From Hymenobacter swuensis DY53 (lineage in GTDB: Bacteria > Bacteroidota > Bacteroidia > Cytophagales > Hymenobacteraceae): 64,000 nt of DNA. The position numbers were made by a program, and so were the translations under genes. Shown one piece after another: positions 45,617 through 52,793 of this stretch (position 1 is its first letter; every line of letters starts with the position of its first letter). Below the pieces are notes generated by a model. That model did not search any database. It saw only the letters and a list, made by a program, of their open reading frames with translations, and was not told the DNA's origin. The DNA lies in contig NZ_CP007145.1 of NCBI RefSeq assembly GCF_000576555.1, positions 3,348,001 to 3,412,000 on the forward strand, written 5' to 3'.

Positions 45617-45727
45617 GACGGTGTAGAGACGCAATATCTTGCGTCTCGTCGTTGCTGATGTTGTTTGATCTGCGCAACACCAGTCGTTCAACGATGAGAC
45701 GCAAGATATTGCGTCTCTACATCGTCC
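45617..45727. repeat. Family C palindromic intergenic repeat
   Basis: GGTGTAGAGACGCAATATC and TTGCGTCTC on the left, GAGACGCAAGATATTGCGTC and TCTACATCG on the right. Each arm also folds on itself (GAGACGCAA/TTGCGTCTC). Related pieces lie at 1510 and 54.3 kb. Confidence 0.8.
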
Positions 45728-45745: not shown

Positions 45746-46000
45746 TCAAGATTCTGACGCATCGAGGCGGCGCTGGAGCTGCGCGGCGAAATCGGGGGGC
45801 AGTTGGGCGGTGGAGGTGGCCTGCGCGGCGAGGCGGGCGGCGCGGGCCAGGGCCGGGCTCTGCACGGCGTAGCGGCGGCAGTAGGCACACAGGCGCAAGT
45901 GGGCCCACAGCTTCATCCGCTCGGCCAAGGGCAGCTGCTGGTCGGCGCGGCGCTCAATGAGCAGGGTGGCGCGTTGGCAGTCGGAAATGAAGGTGCGCAT
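45746..46000 (-). CDS. Tiny zinc-type (ZAS-like) anti-sigma factor
   Basis: 84 residues, soluble. The helical N-terminal half has Cys8, then His34, Cys38 and Cys41 in HLRLCAYC, the H-x3-C-x2-C motif of zinc anti-sigma factors such as RsrA, in which thiol oxidation releases the sigma factor. The C-terminal part (TAQLPPDFAAQLQRRLD) is a short amphipathic helix. Its start lies three bases after the stop of the ECF sigma gene, so they form a sigma/anti-sigma operon. Unlike NrsF of the Azospira system it has no membrane helices. That it senses oxidant is inference from the motif and neighbours. Confidence 0.8.
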   Translation of the reverse strand: MRTFISDCQRATLLIERRADQQLPLAERMKLWAHLRLCAYCRRYAVQSPALARAARLAAQATSTAQLPPDFAAQLQRRLDASES

Positions 46001-46003
46001 ACG

Positions 46004-46594
46004 TTACGAACGGAGAGTGGAGCCGAACCAGTTCTTTTCGAGGCAGCGGCGCAGGTGAAGTTTCAGGCGGTGTACGATAACCCAGTAGTTGGCGGCCGTC
46101 AGCTGTAGCGCCGCGCAGATTTCCTCGGCCGACATTTCCTCGGCAAAGCGCAGCACAAACACGGCTCCGTGCTGGGGCGAAAGCCGCTGCTGGCAGCTGC
46201 GCAGCACCGCCTGAAACTCCTGTTGCTCCAGCGCGTCTTCGTCGCTGGGCGCGGCCCAGTCGGCGGGGCCTTGGCCGGGCTGCCAGTGGCCGGTAGCAGG
46301 CTGGAAGAATTCGGCCTCGGGGTCCTGCTCAGGCAGTAGGGGCAGCGGCACAAAGGGCGAGCGGGCCTGCCGCCGGTAAAAGTCCACGACTTTGCGGCGC
46401 AGAATTACAAACAACCAGGTGCGCTCCGAGGCTTCCCCGCGAAAGGAAGCCAGCGCGTCGAGGGCGCTGCACAGGGTATCCTGCACCAGCTCCTGCGCCT
46501 CCTCCGCCGAGGCCACGCGGCTCAGGGCGAAACGGTACAGGTCGTCGCCGTAGCGGGCAAGCCACTGCGCGGGCTCGGGCACCGAAAGGGCCAT
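46004..46594 (-). CDS. ECF-type RNA polymerase sigma factor
   Basis: 196 residues from the ATG at 46594. Region 2 has WLARYGDDLYRFALSRVASAEEAQELVQDTLCSAL and ERTWLFVILRRKVVDFYRR; region 4 has LSPQHGAVFVLRFAEEMSAEEICAALQLTAANYWVIVHRLKLHLRRCLE, the helix-turn-helix for the -35 element. Between them is a 60-residue linker with acidic and Pro-rich sequence. It directs RNA polymerase to promoters likely of the GCTGTAAGG-N14-GCGTCTA type found three times in this island. Autoregulation is not obvious: this motif was not seen directly upstream of the sigma gene itself. Confidence 0.93.
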   Translation of the reverse strand: MALSVPEPAQWLARYGDDLYRFALSRVASAEEAQELVQDTLCSALDALASFRGEASERTWLFVILRRKVVDFYRRQARSPFVPLPLLPEQDPEAEFFQPATGHWQPGQGPADWAAPSDEDALEQQEFQAVLRSCQQRLSPQHGAVFVLRFAEEMSAEEICAALQLTAANYWVIVHRLKLHLRRCLEKNWFGSTLRS

Positions 46595-46700
46595 GCGGGA
46601 AAGGATAGGTGAAGGGGAGGAAAACCCATCTGGCGGGCTCCGGCAAGTAACGCAAATATCCTGGAGCGCGGATTGGCCATTGCTGGATATACTTCGGCCG

Positions 46701-47498
46701 TTATAGGCTGGCGTGCCAGTCGTAGCCCCGGGCGGCCCAGTAGTCGGCCGGGCGCTCCGCCACGAAAGCCAGCGTGCCGATGCGCTTGAGCTGCTTGATG
46801 CCATACTTGCGGGGCGTGATGAGGCGCAGCGGCGCGCCGTGCTCCGGCAGCAGCGGCCGGCCGTTCATCTCGTAGCACAGCAGGGTTTGCGGGTGCAGGG
46901 CACTGACCATATCGAGGCCCACGTAATACGCATCGTCGGGAGTGCGCAGGCTTACGTAGGGCGCTATTTCGGCAGAGGGAAGGGTGGCCAGCGGGTAGCG
47001 GGCCAGGAAATCGGTGAGGCGCACGCCGGCCCAGGTAACCACCGTGCTCCAGCCCTCGATGCATTTGAGCTCGGTGGTCATTTCGGTGCGGGGCAACGCC
47101 TGCAGCTCGGCCAGGGAGAACTCCCGGACCGGCTGCCCACCGAAACCTTCCACCCGCAGCCGCCACGCGGCCACGTCCAGCGGCTGCTTGAGGCCCACGG
47201 AGCCGTTGGCGCGGGGCGTGCGGGCCTGGTTGCGCGGAAACTCGGGGGCCAGCTGGGTGGGGCTGAGCAGGGTGGCGGCTACGCGGGCGTTGGCCTCCAG
47301 GCCGGCCCGCAGCGGCCCCGGAATGTCCATCACCTCGGGCTGGCCCAGCAGCCAGCGCCAGCCGCCCAGGCCCGCCAGGGCGGCCAGCCCGCCCACCAGA
47401 AAGGTCCGCCGGGAACGGCGCGTCACTTCTCGCTCCAGGGCAACGTCAGCAGCAGGTGGCGTGGCGGGCGGCTGCGGAAGGGATGATTCGGATTGCAT
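46701..47498 (-). CDS. Tat-exported molybdopterin oxidoreductase, MsrP/YedY-like
   Basis: 265 residues. A Tat signal, RRSRRTFLVGG at about 27-37, follows an unusual 25-residue N-terminal extension. The SUOX-type Moco domain has Cys146 in ELKCIEGWS as the molybdenum ligand, then VTWAGVRL, LRTPDDAYYVGLDM, LCYEMNGRPLLPEHGAPLRLI and PRKYGIKQLKRIGTLAF. E. coli MsrP repairs oxidised periplasmic methionine; this protein is a related, shorter form. A cytochrome b-type electron donor precedes it and an ECF sigma/anti-sigma pair follows on the same strand. Methionine sulphoxide reduction is the leading inference; sulphite oxidation is an alternative. Confidence 0.88.
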   Translation of the reverse strand: MQSESSLPQPPATPPAADVALEREVTRRSRRTFLVGGLAALAGLGGWRWLLGQPEVMDIPGPLRAGLEANARVAATLLSPTQLAPEFPRNQARTPRANGSVGLKQPLDVAAWRLRVEGFGGQPVREFSLAELQALPRTEMTTELKCIEGWSTVVTWAGVRLTDFLARYPLATLPSAEIAPYVSLRTPDDAYYVGLDMVSALHPQTLLCYEMNGRPLLPEHGAPLRLITPRKYGIKQLKRIGTLAFVAERPADYWAARGYDWHASL

Positions 47499-47638
47499 CG
47501 GTCAGTACAATAAACGCGTAAGGGAAAACTGGTAATTCTGACTGCTCTGTGCGGCGCGCCGCAATCAGTCCCATACCTGGGGCCGGGCGCATTCTGCTGC
47601 CAAGGTTAGATGAGGGGGCTCTAACAAAGGACCTCAGG

Positions 47639-48394
47639 CTAGGGCCGCACGGGCAGCGGCGGCACGGTATGCAGCGGACTGCTGCTACTGGGGGCCACAT
47701 CGGGCGCGGCGGCGAGCGAGGCAGCCGCGGCCGTGGGGGCAGAGTCCTTTACCACTTCAAACCCCGCTACCATGGCCCGGAAGTTGTTCCAGCCGGCCCG
47801 CACCACTTGGGCAATGTGTACCAGAAAAAACAGCACGTAGCCGATGGTCAGGGCGAAATGCTCCAGGCGGGCCCACTCGTAGCCGCCCAGCGCGGTAGTG
47901 AGGCCGGCCAGCTGGGTGGGCTTGTAGATGGCCAGGCCGGTGAGCAGCGAGCCGGCCCCCATCAGCACCACCGAGGTGTAGGCCAGCTGCTGGGCCCCGT
48001 TGAACTTGGCGGGCGGCGGCGGGTTCTGGCGCAGGCCCACGTCGTGCAGCAGCGTGTGCCAGGCGCTGCGGAGCGTACCGCGCTGCGGCACCAGGTACCG
48101 CCACTCGCCCGAAATCAGGGTGTAGCTCACGTACAGCAGCCCGTTGAGGGCAAACACCCACATCAGCACAAAATGCCAGCTCATGCCCTTGGCCAGCTTG
48201 TGGTCCATGTCCAGCACATCGTACACCGACTGCGGGAAAAACCGCAGCAGCGTGGTGTCGCCCCACCCGAGCCGGTACACGTCGTTGGCCCAGTAAATCA
48301 GCAGGCCGCTCCAGATCATGAGGGCCAGCACCGGGAAATTGAGCCAGTGAAACCAGCGGATAGCCAACGGGTGCTTTTCAACGAGGCGGGGCAT
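47639..48394 (-). CDS. b-type cytochrome, electron donor (YedZ1-like)
   Basis: 251 residues with four to five membrane helices and an Ala/Pro/Ser-rich C-terminal tail. Candidate haem ligands are His16 (IRWFHWLNF), His74 (GMSWHFVLMW), His179 (ARLEHFALT) and His193 (FFLVHIAQV), the spacing of di-haem cytochrome b561/hydrogenase b-type subunits. It probably passes quinol electrons to the exported molybdopterin enzyme 140 bases downstream. It is read from the leftward ECF-type promoter at 48452-48481. Confidence 0.87.
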   Translation of the reverse strand: MPRLVEKHPLAIRWFHWLNFPVLALMIWSGLLIYWANDVYRLGWGDTTLLRFFPQSVYDVLDMDHKLAKGMSWHFVLMWVFALNGLLYVSYTLISGEWRYLVPQRGTLRSAWHTLLHDVGLRQNPPPPAKFNGAQQLAYTSVVLMGAGSLLTGLAIYKPTQLAGLTTALGGYEWARLEHFALTIGYVLFFLVHIAQVVRAGWNNFRAMVAGFEVVKDSAPTAAAASLAAAPDVAPSSSSPLHTVPPLPVRP

Positions 48395-48451
48395 AGGACA
48401 CAGGGCGTTTGAGGGGAGAAACCAGCAGGCGGCCAGCCACCGCCACCCCGA

Positions 48452-48481
48452 TAGACGCCCGGCCGACGGCCACCTTACAGC
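48452..48481 (-). promoter_or_regulatory. ECF-type promoter P1 (leftward)
   Basis: On the minus strand: GCTGTAAGG (48481-48473), 14 bases, GCGTCTA (48458-48452), then TCGGGG. It lies about 58 bases before the cytochrome start. Identical element and spacing to P2 and P3. CGTCTA is a well-known -10 form for ECF sigma factors. Confidence 0.8.
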
Positions 48482-48518
48482 TGCCCCCGAAAAATATTTT
48501 TCGGGGGCAGCTGTAAGG
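48473..48518. repeat. 46-bp perfect palindrome between divergent promoters
   Basis: CCTTACAGCTGCCCCCGAAA and then AAT | ATT run into the exact complement, ending GGCAGCTGTAAGG at 48518, without loop. Its two outer ends are the -35 elements of the divergent promoters P1 and P2, and its centre is AAAAATATTTTT. It could be a binding site for an additional dimeric regulator or simply a mirrored promoter pair. Confidence 0.9.
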
Positions 48519-48539
48519 CCGGAAGTGGTGACGCGTCTA
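48510..48539 (+). promoter_or_regulatory. ECF-type promoter P2 (rightward)
   Basis: GCTGTAAGG at 48510-48518, 14 bases, GCGTCTA at 48533-48539, then GCCG. The ATG of the DUF1223 gene is 44 bases past the -10 element. Same element and spacing as P1 and P3. Confidence 0.82.
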
Positions 48540-48582
48540 GCCGAGTAGCCGCCGCCGTTGGCTGGCCTTGTCTGTTTTCTTT

Positions 48583-49356
48583 ATGAAACTGCTGCTTGTC
48601 GCCGGTCTGGCTTTCGGAAGTCTGCCGCTCACCTCCCCCACCCCGCTGCCTGGCTCACCCGCTGGCCCGGTACCCGCCCGCGTGCCGGTAGCCGTGGAGC
48701 TGTTCACGTCCGAGGGCTGCTCCAGCTGCCCCGCCGCCGATGCCGCACTGCGGGAGCTGGAAGCCAGCCAGCCAGTGCCGGGCGTGGAAATAGTGGCCCT
48801 GGGCCAGCACGTGGACTACTGGAACCGCCTGGGCTGGAAAGATACCTTCTCCTCGGAGCAGTTCACTCAGCGCCAGCGCACCTACGCCGCCGGCTTTGGC
48901 TCGGGCTCCTACACGCCGCAGGCCGTCATCAATGGCCGCTACGAGCTGGTGGGCAGCCAGCGGACCAAGCTGCTGGAAGCCATTGCGCAGGCAGCCCGTA
49001 CGCCGCGCACCACCGTGCAGCTCAACGGCCCCGCGGCGGCCCTGCGCGTACAGGTGCGCGACCTGCCCGCCGGCACCGGCCCGGCCGACGTGCTGTTGCT
49101 CATCACCGAAACCGGCCTCACCACCCAGATCGGGCGGGGCGAAAATGCCGGGCGGCTGGTGCGCCACGCCGCCGTGGTGCGGGAGCTGCGCCCGCTGGGT
49201 GCGGTAGCCGCCGATGGTACGTTTGGGGCCTCGCCCGCGCTCCGGCTGCCGCCGCAGTGGCAGCAAAGCCACCTGCGGGCGGTAGTGCTGGTGCAGGAGC
49301 GCGCCAGCCACCGCGTGGTGGGCGTGGGCAGCCTGCCGCTCAGCCCCGCCGGCTAG
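48583..49356 (+). CDS. DUF1223 thioredoxin-like secreted protein
   Basis: 257 residues from the ATG at 48583, with a signal peptide. VAVELFTSEGCSSCPAADAALREL is the DUF1223 signature with a thioredoxin-like CSSC pair near residue 48; HVDYWNRLGWKDTFSSEQFTQRQRTY and YTPQAVINGRYELVGS complete the domain. A C-terminal beta domain follows. Family function is unknown; the cysteine pair suggests thiol redox work in the periplasm. It is the first gene of the rightward unit driven by ECF-type promoter P2. Confidence 0.9.
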   Translation: MKLLLVAGLAFGSLPLTSPTPLPGSPAGPVPARVPVAVELFTSEGCSSCPAADAALRELEASQPVPGVEIVALGQHVDYWNRLGWKDTFSSEQFTQRQRTYAAGFGSGSYTPQAVINGRYELVGSQRTKLLEAIAQAARTPRTTVQLNGPAAALRVQVRDLPAGTGPADVLLLITETGLTTQIGRGENAGRLVRHAAVVRELRPLGAVAADGTFGASPALRLPPQWQQSHLRAVVLVQERASHRVVGVGSLPLSPAG

Positions 49357-49430
49357 GGCCCGGCCAGTTTACGGCCGCCACCTGCGCGGATTTCAACTCA
49401 GCACACCGTTCACTCTTCATTGCTTTTCCT

Positions 49431-49883
49431 ATGACTACCCGCATACTAGGGCTGTTGCTGCTGGGCCTGAGCCTGGGAGCCTGCCAACAGGAAACCCCGG
49501 AGCCCGCCGCGTCTACTACCACCACGCCCCCGGCCGGCACGCTCACGGTGGTGCGCAAGGGCATCGTGCAGCCCCAGGGCGGCGTGCCCAGCTCAGGCAC
49601 CGTGGATTTGGTGCGCGACGCCGCGGGCAAGGAATTTCTGCGCTTCAACGCCGATTTCATGACCGATTTCCATACCGGCTCGCTCACCATCTACCTGGCC
49701 AAGTCGGCCGAGCTGATTCGGGTGCAGCGGGGGCGTGGGGCCGAGAACGTACTGAGCGTGGGCGTTATCACGCAGTCGGGGGCGCAGGTGCTGGCCGTGC
49801 CGGTGGCTTCGGCTGGCTTCTCGCACGTGGTGCTGCACTGCGAGCCGGCCCAGTACAACTTCGGCGCGGCGGCTCTACAATGA
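49431..49883 (+). CDS. DM13-like lipoprotein
   Basis: 150 residues with lipobox LSLGAC (Cys18) and a Thr/Pro-rich linker. The domain GTVDLVRDAAGKEFLRFNADFMTDFHTGSLTIYLAKSAE resembles the DM13 domain (a proposed electron-transfer or redox module, beta sandwich) with a late Cys in VVLHCEPAQ. The resemblance is by eye. Its stop overlaps the next start in ATGA, so the two are translationally coupled. Anchored in the envelope. Confidence 0.75.
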   Translation: MTTRILGLLLLGLSLGACQQETPEPAASTTTTPPAGTLTVVRKGIVQPQGGVPSSGTVDLVRDAAGKEFLRFNADFMTDFHTGSLTIYLAKSAELIRVQRGRGAENVLSVGVITQSGAQVLAVPVASAGFSHVVLHCEPAQYNFGAAALQ

Positions 49884-50722
49884 GGGCGGCCCGCGCCGGG
49901 TGGCTGCTGGCTGCCGCGCTGCTGCTCGCGGCCGAGGCCCGGGCCGGTGGCGGCTGGACGCGCAAGAAGAAACGCGGCTACGCCAAAGCCGGCCTCACCA
50001 CCGTCAGCACCACCCGCTACCATCCGCTTAGCGGCCCCACCATCGAAACGGCCCGGTTTCGGCAGCAGGTGTTCAGCCTCTACGCCGAGTACGGCCTCAC
50101 CGACCGCCTGGAAGCCACCCTCAACTTTCCGGTTTTCCGGCGCGCCGCCTACGCTACCGTCACGCCCAGCCGGGGCATCGGCGACCCGGAAGTGGGCCTG
50201 CGCTACGGGCTGCTGCGCGGGGCATGGCTGCTGGTCGTGGGCCTAAGCGTGGAAGCGCCACTGGGCAACCCGCGCGCCCGCGGCTTCGACCGCACCGACC
50301 CGCGCGTGTTCGTGGCCCTGCCCACCGGCGACGGAGAGTGGAATGTATGGACGCGGGCGGCCCTCTCGCACAGTCTGAGCCGCTGGCCGGCCTTTTTCAC
50401 GGTGGAAGCGGGCTACAACCAGCGCACCGCCGGCTTCACCAGCCAGTACAGCTACGGCGCACAGGCTGGCTACCACCTCCGGAAAAAAGCCTGGCTGACG
50501 GCCACGTTCCGCACCCTCGACAACGTGCGCCCGCCCGACCCTAACCGGCTGGGCAGCATCGGGCTGGGCGAGGGCGTGGCGTACTCCACGGCAGGGCTGG
50601 GCGTGAGCTTGGAGGCCACCCGCCACCTGCGCCTCACCACCGACTGGGCCACCGGTTTTGGCCGGCTGCGCAACGTGTACTCGGGCCAGCAGTTCACGTT
50701 TGGGGTGGCCGTGGAATGGTAA
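49880..50722 (+). CDS. Outer-membrane beta-barrel protein
   Basis: 280 residues with a signal peptide ending ARA. The mature part alternates as an outer-membrane barrel: KRGYAKAGLTTVSTTRYHP, QQVFSLYAEYGLTDRLEATLNFPVF, GIGDPEVGLRYGLLRG, FFTVEAGYNQRT, and it ends FTFGVAVEW with a terminal aromatic. Similar to small transporter-like barrels of the MetA-pathway type. Starts in the ATGA overlap with the DM13-like gene. It could export or admit a small molecule for the island. Confidence 0.8.
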   Translation: MRAARAGWLLAAALLLAAEARAGGGWTRKKKRGYAKAGLTTVSTTRYHPLSGPTIETARFRQQVFSLYAEYGLTDRLEATLNFPVFRRAAYATVTPSRGIGDPEVGLRYGLLRGAWLLVVGLSVEAPLGNPRARGFDRTDPRVFVALPTGDGEWNVWTRAALSHSLSRWPAFFTVEAGYNQRTAGFTSQYSYGAQAGYHLRKKAWLTATFRTLDNVRPPDPNRLGSIGLGEGVAYSTAGLGVSLEATRHLRLTTDWATGFGRLRNVYSGQQFTFGVAVEW

Positions 50723-50759
50723 CCGGGCCTCGGCCGCTACCAAAAAAAGTCCTACGCCC

Positions 50760-50789
50760 GCTGTAAGGCCTACTGCCGGGCCGCGTCTA
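50760..50789 (+). promoter_or_regulatory. ECF-type promoter P3
   Basis: GCTGTAAGG at 50760-50768, 14 bases, GCGTCTA at 50783-50789, then TCCGGG. It precedes the methionine-rich gene by 49 bases. Only the two elements and TAAGGCC agree with P2; the spacer differs, which argues for functional conservation. Confidence 0.82.
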
Positions 50790-50838
50790 TCCGGGCAACA
50801 CCACACATGTTTCACGTTTCACTTTTCCTCTCTTCCCC

Positions 50839-51117
50839 ATGCGTACCAACCTGTTCTTCGCCCCCGGCTCCCTGCTACTCGCCGCCGTCTTCTGCCTCGG
50901 CACGCTCCTGCCCAACCCCACCTTCGCCCAAGGCGACAAAATGCAGGGCGACAAGATGAAAACCGATAAGATGGCCGACAACAAGATGGCTGACGGCAAA
51001 ATGACCGATGGTAAGATGTCGGATGGCAAAATGGTCACCAGCAAAATGAGTTCGGCAAAAACCGCCAAGAAAGCCCCCAAGAGCAAAATGGCCGACCACA
51101 AGATGGACAAGATGTAA
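50839..51117 (+). CDS. Secreted Lys-Met pentapeptide-repeat peptide (MrpX-like)
   Basis: 92 residues: signal peptide to about Ala30, then a 62-residue mature peptide made of Lys, Met, Asp, Gly and Ala. Met occurs at 35, 40, 45, 50, 55, 60, 65 and 70, strictly every five residues and always after Lys (DKMQG, DKMKT, NKMAD, GKMTD), then at 84, 89 and 92. The only cysteine lies in the signal peptide. Resembles the MXKDX pentapeptide family and Azospira MrpX, a sacrificial methionine peptide that quenches hypochlorite and is recycled by a YedY enzyme. It has its own promoter P3. Function is inference from composition and neighbours. Confidence 0.85.
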   Translation: MRTNLFFAPGSLLLAAVFCLGTLLPNPTFAQGDKMQGDKMKTDKMADNKMADGKMTDGKMSDGKMVTSKMSSAKTAKKAPKSKMADHKMDKM

Positions 51118-51213: not shown

Positions 51214-52125
51214 CTACACGTCCGCGTACACGCCGTCGGTTATCAATTCCCGGTTCAGCCAGGCCCCTGCTTTGGCTCCCTGCGCTACGGCCGCTGCTAC
51301 CTGCCGCATGCCGGTGGTGGCGTCGCCGGCCGCAAACAGGTTGGGCACGTTGGTTGCGCAGACTTCTGTCACCTGAATAAGGCCGGCTTCGGTGAGCGAG
51401 CAGCCCAGCTGCCGGGCCAGGTTACCGGGCAGGCGCGTGGGGAAACGGGCAAATACCGCTTCCAGCGGATGCAGTTGGCCATCAGCCGTACGCAGCCCGG
51501 ACAGGTAGCCGCCTTGGTGAGGAATATCCAGAACGGGTTCTTCTACGACGGGCACCTGATGCGTTTGCAGCAGGGCCTGTTGCTCAGGGGTAAAATCGGC
51601 GGGGCCGTTGGTGAACACCGTCAGCTTGCGGCTCCAGTTGCGCAGCAGCGCCACCAGCTCCGCCGCCACGGCCCCGTTGGCAAGCAAGCCCAGGTGCTGC
51701 CCCCGCACCTCGTAGCCGTGGCAGTACGGGCAGTGCAGCACCGAAATGCCCCAGCATTCGGCCAGCCCCGAAATCGGCAGCAACTCGTCTACCACGCCGG
51801 TAGCCAGCAGCAGCTTGCGCGCTGTCACTTTCGCGCCATCGGCCATTTTCACTTGGAAGCCTGTCGCCTCAGCCGTAGCCGCAACTACCTCGCTATTCAG
51901 GAACGCCACCGTGGGATACCGCGCCACCTGCTCCCGCGCTACCGTGGCCAGCTGAGTGGGCGTCGCACCGTCCTGGGTCAGGAAGCTGTGCGAGTGGGGC
52001 GTCTGGCGGTTGGCGGGCCGTTGCGTATCCACCACCAGCACCCGGCGCATCGAGCGGCCCAGCAGCAGCGCCGCACTCAGCCCGGCGTAGCTTCCGCCTA
52101 CTATCACTACATCATATGCTTCCAT
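51214..52125 (-). CDS. Thioredoxin-reductase-like FAD oxidoreductase
   Basis: 303 residues. FAD motif YDVVIVGGSYAGLSAAL, NAD half with GLLANGAVAAELVALLRN, and the redox pair Cys132/Cys135 in LHCPYCHGYE, then NLFAAGDATTG. The CPYC pair and sequence suit the TrxB-like family of small-molecule disulphide reductases rather than canonical TrxB (CATC). It is convergent with the methionine-rich gene, and could belong to the same stress response, but no ECF-type promoter was seen before it. Confidence 0.9.
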   Translation of the reverse strand: MEAYDVVIVGGSYAGLSAALLLGRSMRRVLVVDTQRPANRQTPHSHSFLTQDGATPTQLATVAREQVARYPTVAFLNSEVVAATAEATGFQVKMADGAKVTARKLLLATGVVDELLPISGLAECWGISVLHCPYCHGYEVRGQHLGLLANGAVAAELVALLRNWSRKLTVFTNGPADFTPEQQALLQTHQVPVVEEPVLDIPHQGGYLSGLRTADGQLHPLEAVFARFPTRLPGNLARQLGCSLTEAGLIQVTEVCATNVPNLFAAGDATTGMRQVAAAVAQGAKAGAWLNRELITDGVYADV

Positions 52126-52226: not shown

Positions 52227-52793
52227 CTACGCCGCCGCCGCATCGTCGGGTAGCTGTAGGTAGCGGGCCGGAACTTCCTCAGTCAGCCACACACCATTGT
52301 CGGCGCGGTAGAAAGCGTGGCCCTCAGCGTGCATGCGGGCGGCATCTATCCGGAGCACAACCGGCGCGCCGTGGCGGCTGCCCACTTGCCGGGCGGTGGC
52401 ATGGTCGGCGCTCAGGTGCACTTGCTGGCGGCTCATTTTCTGCAGCCCTTCCCGCATGATTTGGGCCTGATGACGGGCCGTCGTGCCGTGGTAGAGCACA
52501 GCCGGCGGCACGGCCGGCGCATAGCCTAACTCCACCACCACCGAATGGCCCTGGCTGGCCCGAATGCGCTGCTGGTCGTCGCTGAGGCGGAAACGCTGCT
52601 TAGGGCTGGTATCCACGATGTGCAGTAGCATCTCGTGGGTGAGGTTGATCTTGTGCGCTTGGGCCTGCCGGAGAAGTTCTTCCACACCTACCCAGCCCTG
52701 CTCGTCCAGCGTCAGGCCCAGGTGGGCCGGATCGTGGCGGAGTACCAAGCTCAAGAGCTTGCTGAGGCGGGTGGTTTCTTTATCAGGTAGCAT
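52227..52793 (-). CDS. kptA: RNA 2'-phosphotransferase
   Basis: 188 residues of the Tpt1/KptA family, which removes a 2'-phosphate from RNA onto NAD+. Conserved pieces: TRLSKLLSLVLRHDPAHLGLTLDEQGWV, RFRLSDDQQRIRASQGHSV, VLYHGTTARH, LSADHATARQVGSRHG and FYRADNGVWLTEEVPARYL. Bacteria lack the tRNA-splicing pathway of eukaryotes, so its natural substrate is unclear; roles in NAD-dependent RNA or DNA end modification are discussed for such proteins. Confidence 0.95.
   Translation of the reverse strand: MLPDKETTRLSKLLSLVLRHDPAHLGLTLDEQGWVGVEELLRQAQAHKINLTHEMLLHIVDTSPKQRFRLSDDQQRIRASQGHSVVVELGYAPAVPPAVLYHGTTARHQAQIMREGLQKMSRQQVHLSADHATARQVGSRHGAPVVLRIDAARMHAEGHAFYRADNGVWLTEEVPARYLQLPDDAAAA

Follow-up and report, generated by a model that had tools for sequence, protein, structure and literature searches.

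In a stretch of 64,000 nucleotides (nt) from the genome of Hymenobacter swuensis DY53, hereafter the window, positions 45746 to 51117 hold an island of eight genes. They encode an extracytoplasmic function (ECF) sigma factor with a small anti-sigma factor, a molybdenum cofactor (Moco) enzyme resembling the methionine sulfoxide reductase MsrP, a b-type cytochrome, a DUF1223 protein, a DM13 lipoprotein, an outer-membrane barrel and a secreted methionine-rich peptide. Profile searches and open reading frames located all eight genes where a preliminary description of this DNA had placed them. The features of the island are:

45746..46000, minus strand: small soluble anti-sigma factor with a motif of the zinc-binding anti-sigma (ZAS) type (C8, H34, C38, C41); zf-HC2 and NF052368 sub-threshold, motif in 47/47 homologous rows
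about 46004..46594, minus strand: ECF sigma factor, TIGR02943-like; Sigma70 r2 and r4 over cut-off
46701..47498, minus strand: twin-arginine translocation (Tat)-type molybdopterin oxidoreductase, MsrP-like, active-site Cys146; PF00174
47639..48394, minus strand: b-type cytochrome that presumably supplies the Moco enzyme with electrons; PF01292
48453..48479, minus strand: ECF promoter TGTAAGG-N15-CGTCT before cytochrome-msrP-(ECF-anti-sigma); motif match
48473..48518, no strand: 46-nt perfect palindrome ending on either side in the -35 element of a divergent promoter
48512..48538, plus strand: ECF promoter TGTAAGG-N15-CGTCT before DUF1223-DM13-barrel; motif match
48583..49356, plus strand: DUF1223 thioredoxin-fold protein with CxxC, likely start ATG 48583; PF06764
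49431..49883, plus strand: DM13-domain lipoprotein; PF10517, lipobox by eye
49880..50722, plus strand: outer-membrane beta-barrel with a FapF/COG4313-like fold; AlphaFold2 model
50762..50788, plus strand: ECF promoter TGTAAGG-N15-CGTCT before the Lys-Met peptide; motif match
50839..51117, plus strand: secreted Met/Lys-rich repeat peptide, 92 residues; repeat, signal-like start

On the minus strand, transcription runs from the cytochrome through the Moco enzyme and the ECF factor to the anti-sigma factor, with gaps of 140, 106 and 3 nt. The divergent plus-strand order is DUF1223, DM13 and barrel, the last two overlapping by 4 nt, followed by the peptide. The weakest labels are those of the anti-sigma factor (sub-threshold in both Pfam and NCBIfam), DM13 and the peptide, which reaches half of the TIGR02953 cut-off. 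The best named protein match of the genome is H. yonginensis (97%), and among the best 80 of 198 relatives in the named collection, with records of the same genome possibly excluded, H. perfusus has the nearest ECF locus (95%).

A de novo paired-word search upstream of DUF1223 genes recovered TAAGG-N15-CGTCT in 28 of 40 sequences, compared with a maximum of 4 in shuffled sequences. The whole 5.25-Mb genome contains the longer form TGTAAGG-N15-CGTCT just three times without mismatch and eight more times with one mismatch. All three exact sites lie inside the island, and each precedes a separate transcription unit, namely the cytochrome/MsrP-like unit, DUF1223-DM13-barrel and the Lys-Met peptide. 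Because the genome's three exact sites all fall in the island, the grouping of these genes is more than chance, and judged from sequence the eight genes form one regulon of three units tied together by one promoter motif. No motif site precedes the ECF and anti-sigma genes, which lie downstream of the cytochrome and msrP; read-through from there would give positive feedback. In the divergent pair of promoters, the AT-rich centre of the palindrome could serve as a shared UP element. Nine other divergent loci have their -35 elements 28-38 nt apart and one more has them 53 nt apart, without perfect symmetry.

The motif follows the sigma factor through the genus. Among 120 congeneric genomes, 47 carry ECF homologs at E ≤ 1e-25, and the exact motif was found in 44 of these (152 sites) vs 5 of the 73 ECF-negative genomes (5 sites). 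With the reversed pattern there were 20 sites in ECF-positive and 44 in ECF-negative genomes, which makes it a poor base rate; the ECF-negative genomes are the better control. Upstream sites of individual genes, counted as TGTAAGG-N15-CGTC with up to one mismatch, precede the cytochrome gene in 36 of 41 ECF-positive loci vs 1 of 23 ECF-negative ones, DUF1223 in 36/36 vs 1/4 and the peptide gene in 7/13 vs 0/6.

To see what else the promoter serves in the relatives, we inspected 72 exact sites outside the island loci. These are a part of all sites, the census having omitted 13 whose spacer resembles those of cytoplasmic-MsrA sites and two others; families were assigned by Pfam for ten representatives and by similarity to these for the rest. 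MsrA genes follow 25 of the sites and MsrB genes 26 (51/72), in cytoplasmic and lipoprotein forms as judged by the protein starts, and we therefore regard the regulon of the sigma factor as one of methionine-sulfoxide repair. Six other sites precede AhpC/TSA proteins, three a Spondin_N protein and one DsbD, while 11 remain weak, judged by eye or unassigned (six 'other', one for which no frame was found, two weak matches and two GNAT-like by eye). Two of the 72 sites, both unassigned, are in ECF-negative genomes. The Spondin_N-domain proteins behind exact promoter sites are in L210 (Pfam), L317 and L338 (both by similarity), and the GNAT-like frames are in L316 and L335.

The sigma factor matches TIGR02943 with 147 bits, below the cut-off of 162. 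Its 84-residue partner scores 16.3 bits with zf-HC2 (cut-off 22.2) and 49.6 with NCBIfam NF052368 (cut-off 50). The H-x3-C-x2-C element that had been noted in this protein is present within C8-x25-H34-x3-C38-x2-C41, and the spacing C-x25-H-x3-C-x2-C is kept in all 47 homologous rows. The membrane anti-sigma factor NrsF (PF06532) gave no match over the cut-off in any of the 120 genomes or in the genome of the window, with partial sub-threshold matches in three of the 120; a Caulobacter positive control was detected. Together, these results uphold the proposal that a soluble thiol-type anti-sigma factor stands here in place of NrsF.

Small anti-sigma factors of this kind are known from other bacteria. 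In Neisseria meningitidis, NMB2145 carries Cys4, His30, Cys34 and Cys37, and Streptomyces RsrA is similarly spaced, according to the available part of PMC2893595. The neisserial sigma-E/MseR system (NMB2144/NMB2145) resembles the Hymenobacter pair in its small ZAS anti-sigma factor with equal Cys-His-Cys-Cys spacing and, going by the relatives of the window's genome, in its MsrA/MsrB target. The neisserial sigma-E consensus is given as GTMAGBWTT, 12-13 nt, CGTCTAAH (PMC2893595), and TGTAAGG-N15-CGTCT, which was derived before this comparison was made, matches both elements in the same phase, although the Hymenobacter sites are variable at WTT and beyond CGTCT. The neisserial regulon consists of the sigma operon and msrA/msrB; MsrP, a cytochrome b and a Met-rich peptide are unnamed in the sections of PMC2893595 at hand, which also state that the MseR regulon does not respond to peroxide, diamide or singlet oxygen. 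In Haemophilus influenzae, expression of RpoE2 rises with hypochlorous acid (HOCl) and H2O2, its anti-sigma factor HrsE is a 67-residue ZAS protein, and the RpoE2 regulon includes periplasmic MsrAB and other proteins that repair the envelope, as described in the portion of PMC7907618 available. The Hymenobacter anti-sigma factor fits the ZAS pattern C/H-x23-26-H-x3-C-x2-C quoted there for HrsE. The RpoE2/HrsE effectors comprise MsrAB, MtsZ, a DoxX-like operon and others, and the same portion of PMC7907618 names neither a Met-rich peptide nor a PF01292/PF00174 pair. The likeness to sigma-E/MseR consists in anti-sigma spacing, promoter and, in the relatives, targets. The switch, which the preliminary description had called different, does differ from that of Azospira, but it is of a kind already known from Neisseria sigma-E/MseR and Haemophilus RpoE2/HrsE.

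The Moco enzyme matches PF00174 with 102 bits, and its Cys146, already pointed out in the preliminary description, aligns with the cysteine of the E. coli MsrP structure 1xdq and is identical in 64/64 rows. The context of this cysteine, CIEGWS, resembles CVEAWS of MsrP (C-x-E-x-W-S), unlike CAGNRR of chicken-type sulfite oxidase. With the NCBIfam model for MsrP (PRK05363) the enzyme scores 86.3 against a cut-off of 207. The cytochrome matches PF01292 with 68.5 bits; its five His residues are invariant in 64/64 rows, which makes the four haem ligands of the earlier prediction plausible. In E. coli, MsrP-MsrQ is a periplasmic Moco methionine-sulfoxide reductase with a haem-containing membrane partner, and MsrQ belongs to a family other than PF01292. 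The Hymenobacter pair is thus alike in combining a Moco enzyme with a membrane haem partner and differs in that this partner is a PF01292 protein; the E. coli pair is summarised in PMC8315932, as far as that text was available.

After the presumed signal peptide, the Lys-Met peptide has 61 residues with 11 Met and no Cys. It scores 20.6 bits with TIGR02953 (cut-off 41), a model that matches 11 of the 120 genomes at E ≤ 0.01, none of them over the cut-off. Lys-Met repeat loci, listed manually, were defined by two or more KMxDxKM matches in a span of 300 nt; 41/120 genomes have at least one match and 20/120 a repeat locus, and all 20 carry msrP (Fisher p 2e-5, kinship uncorrected). In L130 (10799-11500), L068 (3311-4029) and L187 (3405-4108), a Lys-Met peptide gene lies directly behind the anti-sigma gene, in L187 without a recognised ECF gene beside it. 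The peptide genes of L148, L182-L186 and L188-L191 have neither other island families in the fetched stretch nor the motif, and their genomes carry the Moco enzyme.

The Moco enzyme and the cytochrome might instead be a sulfite-oxidising pair, with the ECF factor answering sulfite or sulfur stress as Sinorhizobium RpoE1/RpoE4 reportedly do. PF00174 includes sulfite oxidases, the island enzyme has weak matches to SorA, SorT and SoxC, and sulfite-activated ECF factors are reported from Sinorhizobium in the accessible part of PMC3511301. We nevertheless consider a sulfite system highly improbable in view of the MsrP-like cysteine context, the promoter's other targets, which are mostly MsrA and MsrB, and the restriction of KMxDxKM-rule peptide loci to genomes with the enzyme, even though weak TIGR02953 matches occur in three genomes without it.

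The Azospira locus reportedly combines sigF/nrsF with yedY1, yedZ1 and mrpX and detoxifies hypochlorite through a Met-rich peptide that is oxidised and repaired. Both this SigF/NrsF-YedY1Z1-MrpX system and the Brucella BcrS/AbcS-BcrXQP system (ECF16) share with the island a PF00174 enzyme, a PF01292-type cytochrome, and a Met-rich repeat peptide, all under one ECF factor. We checked the likeness in PF01292 and PF00174 to the ECF16 layout in loci of Caballeronia (L151) and Kozakia (L153, with msrA and msrB). These are the two among six Proteobacterial plasmid loci in which a cytochrome b, a Moco enzyme and a 'pentapeptide MXKDX repeat protein' stand beside a sigma factor and a DUF1109 protein; the other four lack a peptide annotation and three of them a sigma factor, in a gene table that is incomplete. 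The enzymes and cytochromes of L151 and L153 belong to the same Pfam families, PF00174 and PF01292, and the enzymes score similarly below the MsrP cut-off (80 for Caballeronia and 85 for Kozakia); their peptides reach 57 and 54 bits with TIGR02953, against 20.6 for the island peptide, which does show the repeat and a signal-like start. The effector families support the earlier reading of the island as a Bacteroidota counterpart of the Azospira system. ECF16 systems have a six-helix membrane anti-sigma factor (NrsF, DUF1109) and promoters of the form GTAA-N14-21-CGAA, as set out in the available sections of PMC8315932. The Hymenobacter system differs in its soluble ZAS-type anti-sigma factor, its -10 element CGTCT and its additional DUF1223, DM13 and barrel genes. 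We rejected membership in ECF16, as NrsF has no match over the cut-off and the promoter differs; nor is the system a proven member of the sigma-E/MseR group.

A scan with the ECF factor across phyla, of which the best 80 of 198 relatives were kept (25 from Hymenobacter and 55 others), revealed similar combinations outside the Bacteroidota. A ZAS-like frame is found in 40 of the 55 non-Hymenobacter loci, counting stop-free frames anywhere on the ECF strand and without a chance control, and three of the 55 carry the effector trio with an ECF factor and a ZAS-type frame. In the planctomycete Zavarzinella formosa (L249), ECF and ZAS genes occur with MsrB, a Met-rich lipopeptide, a cytochrome and an enzyme whose sequence is broken by a stretch of N. 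An Isosphaeraceae metagenome-assembled genome (MAG; L273, Planctomycetota) has peptide, cytochrome, enzyme, DUF1223, ECF and ZAS, and a Nitrospirota MAG (L240) has a more distant ECF factor, a ZAS-type frame without a Pfam match, a Met-rich peptide, a cytochrome and the enzyme. The L240 contig contains two pairs of ECF and ZAS-type genes about 3.6 kb apart, one of them with the methionine effector trio. In the open PMC literature, accessed through ranked, often shortened listings and with subscription papers mostly outside, we found no description of this combination in Bacteroidota, Planctomycetota or Nitrospirota.

The Lys-Met peptide need not be an enzyme substrate. Methionine-rich peptides can bind copper(I), and the peptide may bind this or another metal, or form a structural or antioxidant coat; some of its genes stand alone without the motif, and weak TIGR02953 matches occur in three genomes without msrP. 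However, msrP is present in 20/20 genomes with a repeat locus, and each of Proteobacteria, Planctomycetota and Nitrospirota has loci where a Met-rich peptide accompanies the cytochrome and the enzyme. The Brucella genes bcrX, bcrQ and bcrP share a transcript, and bcrXQP helps the cell to resist HOCl, according to the part of PMC8315932 available. We therefore regard a role apart from the enzyme as unlikely.

The Moco enzyme occurs in 72 of the 120 genomes. Of 76 msrP rows, we discarded three as weak and retained 73 places, the window's own among them; of the other 72, we fetched 60, three fall within further loci (L132, L137 and L181) and the remaining nine were left out, two of which (G018, G098) look island-like by coordinates alone. 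All 61 neighbourhoods (60 fetched and the window) contain the cytochrome, 17 contain DUF1223, 13 the ECF factor with its anti-sigma factor (leaving out two weak ECF matches at 7 kb), and DM13, barrel and peptide occur in the same five. The complete set of eight stands together in four of the 61: the window, the near-identical L032 and L033, and the more distant L068 with another gene order. Strict eight-gene synteny was thus rejected as a general rule; of the conserved co-occurrence that the preliminary description had proposed to search for, the full layout proved rare, and conservation shows at the level of the regulon. Parts of the island recur in other arrangements. In L130, L133 and L140, the ECF-anti-sigma pair is divergent from DUF1223-DM13-barrel without the enzyme, and in other relatives DUF1223, ECF and anti-sigma form one run. 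Genome-wide, an ECF gene lies within 6 kb of DUF1223 at 37 of 54 ECF places, and 44/47 ECF genomes have the Moco enzyme vs 72/120 overall (Fisher p 3e-10, kinship uncorrected).

The DUF1223 protein scores 201.2 bits with PF06764 (cut-off 30.7) and has CxxC in 40/40 rows and a structural relative in the PDB, 2axo; the family has a thioredoxin fold, as stated in the accessible part of PMC3091736. DM13 (PF10517) is barely over its gathering cut-off (25.4 vs 25.0 bits), and its conserved Cys in HCEP is found in 23/24 rows. An electron-transfer role has been proposed for DM13 proteins on account of their association with DOMON domains, in the available text of PMC7189620. The barrel remains below threshold with PF13505 (19.3 vs 28.7). 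Its AlphaFold2 model, made from 17 sequences with a mean predicted local distance difference test (pLDDT) score of 88.9, is an outer-membrane barrel, for which Foldseek returned FapF and a COG4313 channel as nearest structures (query template modelling (TM) score 0.62-0.69). The barrel folds are alike, but identity is 15-18% and the partner gene in Hymenobacter is DM13, which adjoins the barrel in 18/18 loci fetched around it, four of these in other genera of the order. For the barrel, 31 rows were reduced to 24 places by dropping seven fragments or weak matches, and 21 of 23 genomes were counted. Two barrel genes (G113:C94 and G064:C74) are apparently decaying, with an internal stop or split frames.

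As DM13-barrel pairs are found far from msrP in many genomes, also in other families of the order, the island may combine two unrelated units, a repair set of MsrP and peptide under ECF control and a DM13-barrel pair that lies beside it by accident. The barrel lies within 6 kb of msrP at only 6 of 24 places, presence of barrel and Moco enzyme is not associated (p 0.81), and DM13 genes that lead their run outside the ECF-positive set have the motif in 0/9 cases. Five 'leading' DM13 genes do have the motif. Three of them (L032, L033 and the window) are frames overlapping DUF1223, but in L135 and L136 DM13 is truly the first gene of a run and has an exact motif, on contigs other than that of msrP; these are two of the five truly leading cases in ECF-positive genomes. 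Moreover, the barrel lies within 6 kb of DUF1223 at 11/24 places, and in the window DM13 and barrel are both downstream of the DUF1223 promoter. We consider an accidental neighbourhood rather improbable and DM13 and the barrel probably added parts of the regulon. The claim of additional envelope components is thus sustained by the promoter motif that DUF1223-DM13-barrel shares with the rest of the island.

Next to the island, two inverted copies of a GTAGAGACGCAA(T/G)AT(C/A)TTGCGTCTC-like repeat lie behind the anti-sigma gene (45620-45720), resembling by eye repetitive extragenic palindromic (REP) elements. On the other side, an RNA 2'-phosphotransferase gene (Tpt1/KptA, PF01885, 179 bits; 52227-52793) adjoins a thioredoxin-reductase-like gene (51214-52125).

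Taken together, we propose that the island is a compact envelope methionine-repair regulon that joins a switch of the neisserial type to effectors of the Azospira/Brucella type, a reading to which we assign a probability of roughly 85% on the genomic comparisons. Control would be as in Neisseria sigma-E/MseR and output as in Azospira SigF-YedYZ1-MrpX. In the resting cell, the small anti-sigma factor would hold the ECF sigma factor through its zinc/thiol site, as its motif suggests. An oxidant that reaches the thiols of the anti-sigma factor would break this grip, and the freed sigma factor would read the TGTAAGG-N15-CGTCT promoters. Once induced, the cytochrome b and the MsrP-like enzyme would pass electrons from quinol to periplasmic methionine sulfoxide, and the secreted Met-rich peptide would act as a sacrificial substrate, absorbing oxidant and then being restored by reduction. 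The DUF1223 thioredoxin-fold protein, the DM13 lipoprotein and the outer-membrane barrel would be induced with them.

Several observations weigh against this proposal. The three MsrB genes of the window's own genome have no upstream site within three mismatches (MsrA was not searched there), which leaves the MsrA/B link inferred from relatives, and the seeds recognised no Msr gene next to any of the eight one-mismatch sites; the regulon in this genome may be confined to the island. In ECF-positive genomes, the motif is absent upstream of 6/13 peptide genes and 5/41 cytochrome genes, and it lies directly upstream of the ECF gene itself in only 2/45 cases. With 28 of the 72 msrP genomes lacking the ECF factor, the enzyme must be run in another way there. 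The motif counts are not independent. A tree built from enzyme and cytochrome shows no fewer than 11 changes of ECF state and yields six well-supported independent contrasts. The motif changes along with the ECF factor in about 4 of these and in the opposite direction in 0.1 (sign test p about 0.13); six contrasts are too few for significance. Three genomes that match TIGR02953 (G003, G041, G080) lack msrP, and the nesting of the peptide in msrP genomes is therefore strict by the KMxDxKM rule only. Finally, the Hymenobacter motif was not found in L240, L249 and L273.

A broader version of the regulon would make it one case of a shield found across phyla, in which a cytoplasmic thiol switch drives a regenerating methionine sink. 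This sink would consist of MsrA/MsrB, a sacrificial Met peptide and a Moco reductase fed by quinol. Within the Bacteroidota, a DM13 lipoprotein and a FapF-like outer-membrane channel would extend the sink or its electrons to the surface, for example if they exported the Met peptide or carried reducing power through the outer membrane. We see only a slim chance that this wider picture holds as a whole.

The envelope methionine-repair regulon proposed here would unite the thiol-switch sigma factors of Neisseria and Haemophilus with the regenerating Met-peptide sink of Azospira and Brucella, outside the Proteobacteria. It offers a promoter and a regulon that are directly testable in Hymenobacter, and it points to DUF1223 proteins, DM13 lipoproteins and their partner barrel, all of which are poorly understood, as possible participants in oxidative envelope repair. 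The loci in Planctomycetota and Nitrospirota suggest that the effector set came under such a switch more than once.

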